Shown: positions 2,886 to 6,388 of the stretch, piece by piece
How positions within the stretch are numbered: position 1 is the stretch's first letter
Layout: each line of letters opens with the position of its first letter
From: a virus
Length of the DNA: 23,330 nt
Virus record (IMG/VR): IMGVR_UViG_3300048997_000107
Location: 1-23,330 of that record
Reading direction: 5' to 3' (one strand)
Translations under genes and position numbers: made by a program
Notes under the pieces: model-generated
Databases searched by the model: none
Seen by the model: only the letters and a program-made list of their open reading frames with translations
Told to the model about the DNA's origin: nothing

Positions 2886-4040
2886 CTAGGCCGCTGTCGC
2901 CGTGACGGTGCCCGCTTTGGGCAAGACGGCCGGGCCGCTGATGGTGTAGTCGCCCGCCACCCCGTTGATCGTTACGTCAATCACGTAATCAACACCGTCC
3001 ACCCGGTCGGACAGGGAGATGATCTCGTTGCGGCGAATCTTGCCGCCCCACGTCCAGGTGAGCGGGTCCACGTACGACACCAGTGCGTCGTGCACGGCGG
3101 CCAGGGTCGTGGTCGAATCGAACCCGGCCAGAAGATGGACTTGGGCGGTCAACGGCACCGTCACCAGGGTCACATCCACGACATGGACGTCGAGCACAGC
3201 GACCGCCCGGTTTTCCATGTCGGTACGGATCTCGTCTTTCGCCTCCGTGGACAGTGCGGCGCCATTCTCCCCGAGCACGGCGACCGTCATATGGCCCGGA
3301 TTGTCACCCGGGCTCGGGCCGACCGTGGGGTCGTACAGGTCGATCCCTACCGCGCGGGCCACCTCCGCACGCTCCAGCGCGGCCGCCTCGAAATGCCGGG
3401 GCACAACCAGCGCGTCGGAGAGCCGGGACAACCGCTCGACCCCGCGGTCGCGCCACTCGTTGTCGGTTTCCGGGTCCCGGCCATCGGCTACCGCGGTAGC
3501 CAGCTCCACGGTTTCGATGAACGGCACCGGGTCGGCCATGACCATGCGGGCACCGATCGGCATCCCGTTGGCGGCTGCGGTGAACGTGTCTCCGATGATC
3601 GACACGTCGCCGGTGTCCTCGCCTGCCGGGATCACCAGGCCGGGCGGTTCCACAAGAAACGTGGTCGACGTCCCGTTCTCCAGGGGCAGGTAGATGCGGG
3701 TGCCGGCGGGAATGGTGTAGCCGTTGGTGTCACCCAGGATGAAAGTTGCCGACCCAATGGGCGCGGCCCCGTAGTCCCGGTCGACCCCTGCCAACAGAAG
3801 CAGTGCCTGCACTACCGCGCCCGGTAGCCGGTTTACCGCCACGATGGCCTCGGCCATCTCCAGTGCCAGCGACTCCAGAATCAGAACTTCGGTGTTGCCT
3901 TCACGGGGGATCCAGCCGGGCAGATTGAGCTGCAGCGCGGCGATCGCGGCCTCGACGATGGCCTGATCGGACAGATCGAACGGTCGAAGATCCACATAGG
4001 CGGTGAGGTCCGGAGACGGGGCGATGTTGGGGCTGGTCAC
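2886..4040 (-). CDS. Baseplate J-like protein
   Basis: A 384-residue protein of the gpJ / T4 gp6-like family, which forms the wedge ring of contractile baseplates. Diagnostic features are the N-terminal helical region ending in LLLLAGVDRDYGAAPIG (about residues 78-95), a beta region with TIPAGTRIYLP, the segment DPETDNEWRDRG (about 190-200) typical of gpJ proteins, and a C-terminal region predicted to be mixed alpha/beta. It starts at a GTG that overlaps the stop of the gp25-like wedge gene by 4 bases and ends directly before the gpI start. Wedge, J and I in this order are the standard baseplate module of P2-type and many actinobacterial contractile tails. Length is normal for the family and nothing appears broken. 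Confidence 0.93.
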   Translation of the reverse strand: MTSPNIAPSPDLTAYVDLRPFDLSDQAIVEAAIAALQLNLPGWIPREGNTEVLILESLALEMAEAIVAVNRLPGAVVQALLLLAGVDRDYGAAPIGSATFILGDTNGYTIPAGTRIYLPLENGTSTTFLVEPPGLVIPAGEDTGDVSIIGDTFTAAANGMPIGARMVMADPVPFIETVELATAVADGRDPETDNEWRDRGVERLSRLSDALVVPRHFEAAALERAEVARAVGIDLYDPTVGPSPGDNPGHMTVAVLGENGAALSTEAKDEIRTDMENRAVAVLDVHVVDVTLVTVPLTAQVHLLAGFDSTTTLAAVHDALVSYVDPLTWTWGGKIRRNEIISLSDRVDGVDYVIDVTINGVAGDYTISGPAVLPKAGTVTATAA

Positions 4041-4363
4041 GCGCGCGGGGCCTCTCGGGTGTCATCGGGCCGCTGCCATGAGATCGACACTTCCTCCGCG
4101 TCGGCCGCGGTGAGCCTGGCAGAGACCGCTTGAATCCGCACGTCCGGCCCGAAATCCAGACAGTGGCGCTGCAAGGAGCTGACTAGGAACCGGGCGAACA
4201 CCGGGTCCGCCACGCCGAACGTGGGCACCGTGACCCGCTCCCCGGGGCGGGTCAGAGTGGCGATGGCCAGGTGTTCCTCGACGTCTTGGTCGCTGTCCTG
4301 GTCGACTGTGGCCAGTGACCCGGTGGGGTCCAGGCGGAACGGGAAACTGATCAGTCGCGGCAC
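4037..4363 (-). CDS. gp25/gpW-like baseplate wedge protein
   Basis: A 108-residue protein with the signature of the gp25-like lysozyme-related wedge family. SFPFRLDPTGS opens the protein, followed by an acidic DQDSDQDVEEHLAI helix, LTRPGERV, and the FGVADPVF motif near residue 50. In contractile tails this protein sits in the inner baseplate and is thought to help start sheath polymerisation. The start is a GTG preceded by GAGG about 8 bases upstream. The gene is separated from the preceding minus-strand gene (ending at 5212) by the plus-strand cassette, so its transcription probably relies on read-through across that cassette. It overlaps the gpJ start by 4 bases, so translation of the two is likely coupled. 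Confidence 0.92.
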   Translation of the reverse strand: MPRLISFPFRLDPTGSLATVDQDSDQDVEEHLAIATLTRPGERVTVPTFGVADPVFARFLVSSLQRHCLDFGPDVRIQAVSARLTAADAEEVSISWQRPDDTREAPRA

Positions 4364-4442
4364 CGGGTCATCCTCGCATCGTGGCTACGGTTCACCGGGG
4401 ACCGGCGCGCCTCGCTCCTGCTGCGTTGGGGTCACCGGGAAA

Positions 4443-4494
4443 CTTAACGAGTTAGAGTTTGACACTACGACAGGAAGGGTGTAGTGTTTTACAC
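4443..4494 (+). promoter_or_regulatory. Plus-strand promoter with overlapping inverted repeats (putative operator)
   Basis: A perfect -35 box TTGACA (4459-4464) is followed after exactly 17 bases by TAGTGT (4482-4487), which fits the actinobacterial -10 pattern TAnnnT. Transcription would start near 4494 and run into the three small plus-strand genes. Several dyads overlap it: ACACTAC (4462-4468) with GTAGTGT (4481-4487), GTGTA (4479-4483) with TACAC (4490-4494), and TAAC/GTTA just upstream (4445-4454). These are plausible binding sites for the DNA-binding-like proteins encoded by the same cassette. The boxes are seen; repression is inferred. Confidence 0.75.
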
Positions 4495-4524
4495 ATCGGG
4501 CGGACACGCCGCCCCTCACACCCT

Positions 4525-4531
4525 GAGGAGG
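4525..4531 (+). promoter_or_regulatory. Strong ribosome binding site of the plus-strand cassette
   Basis: GAGGAGG lies 7 bases before the ATG at 4539. It is one of the strongest ribosome sites in the window and settles both strand and start for the first cassette gene. Confidence 0.8.
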
Positions 4532-4538
4532 CCACCCG

Positions 4539-4793
4539 ATGGCCACCACCACCCTCCCTTCCCCCGCTACCCACTTCTGCACCACCAAGGGCTGGTTCGC
4601 CTACAGCGACCTCACCCCCGCGGTGCGGCGGGCGATCCTGTCCGCAGAGGATGGCGTCGGCTACCTCGCCAACTGGGTCAGTACTCAGACCGCGAAGAAG
4701 CTCGTTGCGATGGGCATCGTCGAGGACCGCGTTTGCGGCCTGCACCTGACCCACCACGGTCAGGTGCTGTGGTGCGAGATTGACGAGGCCTGA
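4539..4793 (+). CDS. Small protein, possible winged-helix DNA-binding protein (moron cassette gene 1)
   Basis: An 84-residue protein on the strand opposite to the surrounding tail genes. I do not recognise it by name. Its second half has the layout of a small winged helix: a helix beginning VSTQTAKKLV (about residues 47-56), the turn AMGIVED typical of the segment after a recognition helix, then LHLTHHGQVLW like the beta wing LT..G seen in MarR/PadR-type regulators. There are two cysteines in the body (C14 and C67) and one near the end (C79). A consensus-like promoter and a GAGGAGG ribosome site precede it. Its stop overlaps the next start by one base (TGATG), so the two are co-translated. 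A regulatory role is inferred from fold-like features and from being encoded beside a ribbon-helix-helix-like protein. Confidence 0.75.
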   Translation: MATTTLPSPATHFCTTKGWFAYSDLTPAVRRAILSAEDGVGYLANWVSTQTAKKLVAMGIVEDRVCGLHLTHHGQVLWCEIDEA

Positions 4794-4996
4794 TGCCTCG
4801 CCCGCTACCGCCCGGCGGCCAGCGCCGCCGGGCGGTACCCCTGCGGCTCTCCCTCGAAGAGGAAGCCCCCGTGCAGGCGGTTGCCGACATCGAGCACGAC
4901 GGGAATCTCTCAGCCGCCATCCGGGCACTACTCGCGGAGGCGATTGCCGCGCGCACCATCCGGGCACTGCAAGGCATCAACGACCAGGAGAAATGA
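4793..4996 (+). CDS. Ribbon-helix-helix-like DNA-binding protein (moron cassette gene 2)
   Basis: A 67-residue protein with a basic N-terminus (PGGQRRR) followed by VPLRLSLEEEAPVQAVAD. This alternating strand and helix look like the ribbon-helix-helix (CopG/Arc/MetJ) fold. A second helix, LSAAIRALLAEAI, matches the usual SxAIRxLL pattern after the turn. Such proteins bind DNA as dimers through the beta ribbon and often repress their own promoter; the inverted repeats around 4445-4494 would suit this. It overlaps genes 1 and 3 (TGATG and ATGATG junctions), so all three form one tight operon. It could also be the antitoxin half of a toxin-antitoxin pair, but neither neighbour looks like a known toxin. 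Confidence 0.8.
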   Translation: MPRPLPPGGQRRRAVPLRLSLEEEAPVQAVADIEHDGNLSAAIRALLAEAIAARTIRALQGINDQEK

Positions 4997-5211
4997 TGAA
5001 CCAGCCAACCCGTCCCGGGGTTGAACACCGCACGGTGACCTGGCAACTTTCCTCCGGCATCGTATGGCGCCCGGGCCCGAACCGGCGGAACGAGTTCCGG
5101 CAAGACCGTGCGGCAATGTGGAAGTGCACGTGCGGCAAAACCGGCGCCGGTGCAACCCGTGATGAGGTTCGGCGTCGAGCTCGCCTTCATCGCGCAGGGG
5201 ACCTTGCGTAG
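4996..5211 (+). CDS. Small CxC-containing protein of unknown function (moron cassette gene 3)
   Basis: A 71-residue basic protein, not recognised. It has a C-terminal WKCTCG motif followed by a short Arg-rich helix (DEVRRRARLHRAG). The two cysteines plus the histidine could bind metal, but only two cysteines are present, so a classical zinc finger is not supported. The ATG at 4996 is preferred because AGGAG (4986-4990) lies 5 bases upstream; an in-frame ATG at 4993 is too close to it. The gene ends with TAG at 5211, directly abutting the stop of the convergent minus-strand gene at 5212, with no terminator between. Co-transcription with the two preceding DNA-binding-like genes is clear from the overlaps. 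Confidence 0.72.
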   Translation: MNQPTRPGVEHRTVTWQLSSGIVWRPGPNRRNEFRQDRAAMWKCTCGKTGAGATRDEVRRRARLHRAGDLA

Positions 5212-6234
5212 CTAGGCCGCCAGCGCCAACCAGGCTTTGCGCACCCCGGGCGTCCAGGTCCCGTCGGTGAAGTCGAACCCGGAGGGGAACGCGACACCGG
5301 CTTTCGTGACCACACTATTGAGCGCCACCGTGGGATTGAGCGCGGAGCTGTGCGGCACGGTCGGGGACGTCGCCACCTGGGGAGCCGAACTGTAGCCGGC
5401 GGCGAGCAGGCCGAGCGCGACGTAAGGAAAGCCAGCGAACATCGTGCCGCCGGCGAACGTGGCCTCGACATGCCCCAGCGTGCCAAGGGCGATGCCGTTG
5501 ATGGTGAACAGCACCATGGTCGCGGGCGTGGTGCCGACGTACACGGCGGCGTTGGCCGTACCCCCGACCCCGGCGACGGCCACCACGGCGCGGAGCTTCG
5601 AGAAGGCGAACACACGATTGGTGCGCAGTTTGTACAGGTACAGGGTACCGTTGGCGATCGTCTCGACCCCGGACATGGAATGCCGGGGCAGGGTGCTGAG
5701 CAGGTCGCCGTACAAGTCGATCTCGTTGTAGGTGTACGGCTCGCGGGCCTGCAGCCCGGTCAGCGCCGTGGTGTTGGTGGCGATATTCGCCGTGTTGGTG
5801 GCGATGGCCGTGCCGTTCGCGGAGATTGCCGATCCTTGGGCGGTGTTGACGCCCTCGATGGCAGTGGCCCGAGTCTCCAGCGCGCTGGTACGTCCGGTCA
5901 ACCCGGTGATCAAACCGCCTTGGCTGGTCACTGTGCCCGCCAGCGCGGTGAGGTCCGTGGCGTTGGCTTTCGCGTTCAGTGCGTCCAGCAGGCCGTCGAT
6001 ATCTCCGATGTCCGGGAACGCGGCGCCGATTTTCGCCAGGATGACCAGATCATCGCGACTGGTGCCCTTGGCACCCAGGATCACCCGGTCGCCGGCCGTG
6101 AGCCCTGGCACGCATGAGGGCACCGGACCCCACTTCGAGGTGCGCGCCAGGCCCACGGACTGCAGCTCGTAGCCGCCACTCGCCGCGTCCTGGCGTAGGA
6201 CGCGGCCGAGATGGAGGTAGCCGTAGTCACTCAT
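5212..6234 (-). CDS. Baseplate spike/fibre-like protein with possible N-terminal OB-fold
   Basis: A 340-residue protein. Residues 1-70 (GYLHLGRVL, then LTAGDRVILGAKG, then DLVILAKIG) look like a small five-strand OB-type barrel as in spike/gpV-like baseplate proteins, though this is by eye. Residues about 75-160 are low complexity with Ala, Thr, Asn and heptad-like spacing, including near-repeats such as AIATNTANIATNT, and suit a trimeric coiled coil. The C-terminal 175 residues are Gly/Ala/Val-rich and probably a beta-structured tip. The ATG at 6234 is chosen because it overlaps the preceding 53-residue gene; an upstream in-frame ATG at 6249 has no better ribosome site. It lies between the hub gene and the wedge gene, where a spike or short fibre is expected. 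The convergent cassette stops immediately at its end. Confidence 0.75.
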   Translation of the reverse strand: MSDYGYLHLGRVLRQDAASGGYELQSVGLARTSKWGPVPSCVPGLTAGDRVILGAKGTSRDDLVILAKIGAAFPDIGDIDGLLDALNAKANATDLTALAGTVTSQGGLITGLTGRTSALETRATAIEGVNTAQGSAISANGTAIATNTANIATNTTALTGLQAREPYTYNEIDLYGDLLSTLPRHSMSGVETIANGTLYLYKLRTNRVFAFSKLRAVVAVAGVGGTANAAVYVGTTPATMVLFTINGIALGTLGHVEATFAGGTMFAGFPYVALGLLAAGYSSAPQVATSPTVPHSSALNPTVALNSVVTKAGVAFPSGFDFTDGTWTPGVRKAWLALAA

Positions 6235-6388
6235 CGGTGTCCGTCTCATCCAGGGGAACTAGGGACACGTTCGTTTGCAAGCCCTCGAGCGCCAGGCCGG
6301 CTGCCGTCCGGCTGAATGCCTCAATCGCGCGGGTGGCTTGTTCGGGGTCACTCGTGCACACGGATACACTGATGCTGATTTCTTTCAC
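6227..6388 (-). CDS. Small overlapping gene between hub and spike-like genes, unknown function
   Basis: A 53-residue frame starting at a GTG that overlaps the hub stop codon by 4 bases (GTGA) and ending with TGA inside the start of the next gene, 8 bases past its ATG. The product begins KEISISVSVCTSD, has a central amphipathic helix (QATRAIEAFSRTAAGLALEG) and an acidic end (LDETDTDE). The overlap at both ends and the lack of any other coding frame between 6249 and 6385 argue that it is real. I do not recognise the family. Its place suggests a small baseplate component or assembly factor; this is inference only. Confidence 0.65.
   Translation of the reverse strand: MKEISISVSVCTSDPEQATRAIEAFSRTAAGLALEGLQTNVSLVPLDETDTDE

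Follow-up and report, generated by a model that had tools for sequence, protein, structure and literature searches.

A portable cargo cassette with a ribbon-helix-helix protein and a two-box palindromic promoter in actinobacterial-type phages: a probable self-repressing moron

Main finding

In this study, a three-gene cassette on the plus strand of a 23.3-kb viral record (the window, meaning this whole stretch of DNA) was investigated, and we consider it probable, at roughly two chances in three, that it is a portable moron operon in which the middle gene, X2, encodes an autorepressor, X1 and X3 together encode the effector, and the cargo is swapped between phages. At the level of sequence, we observed an operon, two palindromic boxes in its promoter, a family of X2 ribbon-helix-helix (RHH) proteins linked to these boxes, cargo that changes from cassette to cassette, a fusion of X1 with X3 in another phage, and an insertion hotspot. 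At least eight further viruses have X2 and the promoter switch as well, next to entirely different cargo genes. These patterns suggest that X2 would bind the boxes directly and repress, that expression would come as an early pulse, and that X1 and X3 would act against the host or its defences.

Organisation of the cassette

The minus strand of the window holds phage head and contractile-tail genes, including those for the sheath, the tube, the tape measure, a gp25-like protein and baseplate J. By baseplate J, the nearest named relatives are Brevibacterium and Gordonia phages of 83-93 kb (~37-42% identity), together with Arthrobacter phages of ~50 kb, and the window phage is of the actinobacterial type, with its contractile-tail operon on the minus strand. 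X1-X3 run on the plus strand between two minus-strand genes, so that the strand switch and the three-gene cassette among baseplate genes, as described by an earlier sequence-only reading, are confirmed. The features are as follows.

4364-5211: inserted segment, the gap between the gp25-like gene (4037-4363) and the spike-like g5212 (5212-6249)
4453-4467, plus strand: putative operator box 1, TAGAGTTTGACACTA, palindromic, holding the -35 TTGACA (4459-4464)
4482-4496, plus strand: putative operator box 2, TAGTGTTTTACACAT, holding the -10 TAGTGT (4482-4487)
4525-4531, plus strand: ribosome-binding site of X1, GAGGAGG, read from the sequence, 7 nt 5' of the ATG at 4539
4539-4793, plus strand: X1, 84 aa, ATG start, putative part 1 of the cargo/effector, based on codon usage and a match to the N-terminal half of an EMoore protein
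4793-4996, plus strand: X2, 67 aa, ATG start, RHH protein, proposed autorepressor
4996-5211, plus strand: X3, 71 aa, ATG start, basic CxC...H protein, putative part 2 of the cargo/effector

The GAGGAGG ribosome site and the overlap of the three genes, both claimed before, are likewise present: the X1/X2 and X2/X3 junctions are TGATG stop/start overlaps, which makes the three genes translationally coupled. X1 and X2 show the codon bias of phage genes, which their antisense frames do not, and since the codon score of X3 is neutral, X3 was accepted as a gene on account of its homology to the EMoore protein. Between X2 and its homologue in the viral contig L003, dN/dS stands at ~0.35/1.61. Two long antisense ORFs across the cassette (4452-4967 and 4678-5190) were discarded, as codon scoring marks them as shadows. 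A very stable 14-bp hairpin lies at 4806-4837 (plus strand), inside the first codons of X2, with a 12-bp stem as its counterpart at about 10014-10045 of L003; third-position changes are fewer there than in the surroundings, and it may reflect codon composition or be a translational control element. The stops of X3 and g5212 abut at 5211/5212, and no plus-strand terminator-like site was found in 3800-5800, the cassette end included; a terminator of its own, one mark of a moron, is thus lacking here, and moron-like working is independent of it.

Promoter and two-box operator

The promoter consists of TTGACA, a 17-bp spacer and TAGTGT, and is built of two 15-bp palindromes, TAGaGTTTGACACTA over the -35 and TAGTGTTTTACACAT over the -10. 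The earlier reading had correctly named the TTGACA and missed these palindromes, which are the main feature of the locus. In the window, box 1 and box 2 are 29 bp apart and box 1 has one symmetry-breaking base (TAGAGT). Transcription would be expected to start near 4494. A generic sigma-70 scan of the window did not return this promoter, as its -10 (TAGTGT) follows the TAnnnT form of actinobacteria; the predicted promoter is nevertheless supported by the recurrence of both boxes in nine other cassettes. Altogether, the TTGACA-17-TAGTGT arrangement is kept in ten cassettes, as a moron with its own promoter should have it, the spacing between the boxes is 29-30 bp in all ten, and the consensus of box 1 is TAGTGT-TTG-ACACTA. 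Searched with at most two mismatches in the records examined, box 1 occurs at cassettes only and once per genome, while G014, which has two cassettes, has three. The ATG within ACACATG is itself the start codon of the first gene in G001, G016 and G021, implying a leaderless mRNA.

A recurring family of cassettes

With the strict promoter pattern, L003 was the only viral contig recovered besides the window, and genome contigs gave no match; this pattern and one two-sequence query make up the coverage of cellular genomes. The relaxed pattern, TTGACACTA-N12-16-TAGTGTnnnACAC, was found on 13 viral contigs. In all nine high-GC matches the same strand encodes an X2 homologue 0.2-1.0 kb further downstream, usually with the TGATG overlap, whereas none of 17 control records (the four low-GC matches, 11 relatives of the window phage and two Gordonia phages) contains one. 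The low-GC matches L035, L038, L044 and L045 were rejected as chance hits, lying inside coding sequence without X2. Apart from the window, L003 and the second copy in G014 (reached through X2), the cassettes were reached through the promoter, so that the linkage to X2 was a prediction, and it held. The upstream TAGTGT arm, the ACACAT end and the TGATG junction are also conserved, none of these being part of the search pattern.

Counting that of the window, ten distinct cassettes were recognized, G016 and G020 sharing one. The boxes of L003/G001 have the same spacing as those of the window and agree with them at 29/30 box positions and 6/14 spacer positions; the X2 homologue of L003 is 61% identical and keeps the TGATG junction, and X1 is replaced there by an unrelated gene. 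A 33-aa cysteine-rich ORF stands in the place of X3 (L003:10273-10374), its GTG start overlapping the stop of X2. At L003:11284-13998, a MobF-relaxase-like helicase adjoins the cassette at the tail end of this tailed-phage contig, and a phage-plasmid or a neighbouring integrated element is possible there.

The cassette runs against its neighbours in the window and, by simple gene call, also in G014 (first copy), G017, G018, G019 and G021, and the second cassette of G014 (L057:4550-5878) adjoins an integrase and XRE-type regulators. These placements, the integrase neighbourhood included, indicate that the cassette is used by different phage types. Directly in front of the second X2, G014 has an additional box with a promoter-like site, which suggests that X2 may also be expressed alone there. 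The family members are metagenomic contigs, save three named phages (plus EMoore for X1/X3).

The X2 regulator

The X2 proteins start with MPRPGPRR and, judged as a family, are clearly of the RHH kind. Seven of ten members match the RHH_1 profile (best E 5.2e-8) and the family profile matches the RHH domain of NikR (E 6e-4), a strand-helix-helix match that places the family, rather than the window X2 alone (no RHH_1 match), with RHH_1/CopG-like proteins. When the window and L003 were left out of the family HMM, it placed the window X2 at the top of 4021 six-frame segments (E 6.6e-12). The predicted model has an extended stretch followed by helices 21-35 and 39-66, and a fold search with this monomer of moderate confidence returned no RHH structure. 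Thus, of the two DNA-binding proteins proposed earlier, the RHH assignment of X2 stands at the family level, while X1 shows a winged-helix-like pattern without statistical support.

Rhodococcus phage Finch and the Gordonia phages Stormageddon and RedWattleHog encode more distant X2 members, in operons that also contain nuclease genes and lie behind the terminase. No boxes were detected at these loci, although both share a TTAACACTACGAG stretch ahead of the first gene. The Finch ORF (L065:3501-3683) lies in a frame other than that of the annotated gp6, which may be misannotated. A 40% match to X2 in L004 was set aside, being seed-selected and inside an unrelated 224-aa ORF.

Cargo genes

Direct homology searches with X1, X2 and X3 (Pfam, PHROGs, NCBIfam, PADLOC, PDB, phages and plasmids) gave few matches, and none to PADLOC models. 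X3 is, as the sequence-only reading had it, a CxC protein (CxC...H), small, basic and with no known domain. An unannotated 137-aa ORF of the Gordonia phage EMoore (NC_053243; L018:2222-2635) matches X1 and then X3 with its two halves, in the same order. Located behind the terminase, it has a TTGACG-17-TACATT promoter with overlapping palindromes (9-10 bp) and is apparently leaderless; similar promoters precede other small genes in sister phages of EMoore. The AlphaFold model of the fusion (pLDDT 37.5) is too poor for use. Since X1 and X3 are fused there as one protein, they probably work as one unit.

Among 16 proteins tested from the ten cassettes, no two cargo proteins of different cassettes were detectably related, and only one described domain (DUF7736) was recognized. 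The idea of two regulators with a third partner is therefore not upheld: X2 is the conserved regulator, and X1 was dropped as a second one because it does not travel with X2 and is replaced by unrelated genes.

Insertion hotspot between the gp25 and spike genes

Presence or absence at the same junction, which the earlier reading had put forward as a check, bears out its view of the segment as a moron, an independently promoted insertion that includes an RHH protein and is missing from the same junction in relatives. The gap between gp25 and the spike gene is 45-72 bp in six relatives (L005, L007, L012, L013, L014 and L016), about 280 bp in L006, and the genes are tightly packed there in the named relatives. 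Other cargo occupies the junction elsewhere: L008, L009 and L010 (one lineage, L010 being placed solely by its identical gp25 match) and L011 encode a secreted SGNH hydrolase, its gene reversed and equipped with a separate promoter (TTGACT/TTGCCT) and an inverted repeat; in L015 an SGNH protein is encoded on the same strand. The SGNH/GDSL hydrolase genes are as follows.

L008:5178-5903, opposite strand: SGNH/GDSL hydrolase at the gp25-spike junction
L011:1685-2431, opposite strand: SGNH/GDSL hydrolase at the gp25-spike junction
L015:761-2626, same strand: SGNH/GDSL hydrolase at the gp25-spike junction

The L008 and L011 loci share a conserved CTAGCC...GGCTAG inverted repeat. As the junction is either empty or filled with other cargo in relatives, it is a cargo site, or insertion hotspot, and the cassette adds a transcription unit where relatives have the two flanking genes side by side.

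Proposed mechanism and alternative explanations

The host-type promoter is predicted to be strong and to fire when phage DNA enters, or while the late genes are silent, and host RNA polymerase would transcribe the cassette early, before late minus-strand transcription runs through it. One mRNA would carry X1-X2-X3, and X1 and X3, a single fused protein elsewhere, would jointly form the effector. X2 dimers are predicted to bind both palindromes, and bound X2 would block RNA polymerase and limit expression to a short pulse. The effector slot would be exchanged freely between phages with the operator and X2 staying together, as expected of fast-evolving anti-defence or host-takeover proteins. Because the boxes overlap the -35 and the -10, we infer that X2 represses the promoter. 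With an RHH gene in each operon, a box 1 confined to cassettes and the exchange of cargo, this placement argues for negative autoregulation of the cargo operon, in which X2 very probably switches off its own promoter. It is the architecture that leads us to infer an effector in X1 and X3, and architecture and exchangeability, rather than any cargo match, that point to an anti-defence or host-takeover role. Counting against this autorepressed, acr-aca-like reading, X3 of the window is downstream of X2, whereas the published acr-aca regulator is downstream of its cargo; the asymmetric base in box 1, the EMoore fusion without X2 and the fold search without an RHH structure are further points on that side.

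RHH antitoxins autorepress at palindromes, and a toxin-antitoxin-like addiction module, with X2 as an RHH antitoxin autorepressing its operon with the toxin X3 or X1, would account for the boxes. X3 is indeed small and basic, X2 of L003 has a weak RelB match (0.045) and one family member a weak CopG_antitoxin match (0.024). Nevertheless, an antitoxin must fit its toxin, and X2 has unrelated neighbours in every cassette; with no constant, recognisable toxin partner it is not of type II, no cargo matched a toxin family, and in EMoore the X1-X3 fusion occurs without X2. We therefore regard such a module as unlikely.

A role in lysogeny control or superinfection exclusion, in which X1 and X2 would be DNA-binding regulators that silence phage genes in a lysogen, seems to us still less likely. 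It would agree with the cassette's own promoter, the opposite strand, the RHH protein and the integrase and XRE-type neighbours of one G014 cassette. However, a box 1 confined to the cassette leaves X2 without a visible second target in the phage, X1 is neither conserved with X2 nor supported as a DNA-binding protein, and the 128-kb and 102-kb relatives of the window phage showed neither a Phage_integrase nor a Resolvase domain. The exclusion, defence or lysogeny-control function suggested earlier thus gained no specific support, and the architecture is more in keeping with a self-limited unit that would act early, against the host or its defences.

Alternatively, a host regulator common to actinobacteria could recognise the boxes, with X2 a cargo-associated DNA-binding protein acting elsewhere; we consider this improbable. 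TTGACA and TAGTGT are ordinary actinobacterial hexamers, and box conservation could partly be promoter conservation, yet it also covers the parts of the palindrome arms that lie beyond the hexamers. The phage genomes searched showed no further boxes, and in the records examined X2 is present with each high-GC box pair and missing where there is no such pair.

Comparison with known systems

Anti-CRISPR operons of the acr-aca kind are often inserted in phage structural regions. In the published examples, a repressor encoded within the operon accompanies a strong core promoter that has one or two inverted repeats (PMC9410906), and the cassette resembles them in its small unrelated effector genes, its one conserved DNA-binding regulator (X2, in ten cassettes) and its strong predicted promoter with inverted repeats, here boxes over the -35 and -10. 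Unlike the bacterial Aca families tested there, which are helix-turn-helix (HTH) proteins (PMC9410906), the cassette regulator is RHH; X3 follows X2, and the window cargo has no PADLOC match. The cassette would work like an acr-aca operon, but with an RHH instead of an HTH regulator it is not filed as one, nor X2 as an Aca family member.

Reg(p576), an RHH repressor of establishment genes in pLS20-family conjugative plasmids, is similar in its promoter-flanking operators and in that anti-host genes, ardC among them, are presumed to be expressed only briefly upon entry (PMC8708921). That system belongs to plasmids, where repeated operators put several operons under one repressor, whereas here box and regulator make up one cassette, box 1 being found once per genome (three in G014). 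Since phage repressors of this kind are stated to be HTH proteins (PMC8708921), an RHH version in phages is new. The Aca8 group of archaeal viruses also has a shared regulatory promoter sequence before diverse small early genes, several of them HTH/RHH (PMC11065993), yet its promoters and viruses are archaeal and the motif precedes many separate genes in each genome, as against one cassette here (two in G014). Compared with RHH_1/CopG-NikR repressors, whose profiles the X2 family matches, X2 lacks a ligand-binding domain and is extended at its N terminus by the conserved MPRPGPRR. The EMoore ORF is alike in its X1-X3 order and its own palindromic promoter, and differs in lacking X2, in its operator sequence and in its location.

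Searches for anti-defence genes have so far leaned on guilt by association, with HTH Aca proteins as the marker, and the 12 Aca families known in 2022 come from Proteobacteria and Firmicutes, except one from archaeal viruses (PMC9765179). A portable RHH regulator-operator pair with freely exchanged cargo could serve as bait in the same way for actinobacterial phages, about whose counter-defences little is known; some 16 mostly unannotated small proteins become testable candidates with directly addressable targets, and the regulator and its switch offer a search route to viral genes used against hosts. With about as much belief as doubt, we propose that these cassettes form an undescribed class in actinobacterial-type phages, minable by promoter, in which an MPRPGPRR RHH autorepressor and a two-box operator would govern exchanged anti-defence or host-takeover effectors, X1 and X3 among them, as an RHH counterpart of acr-aca.
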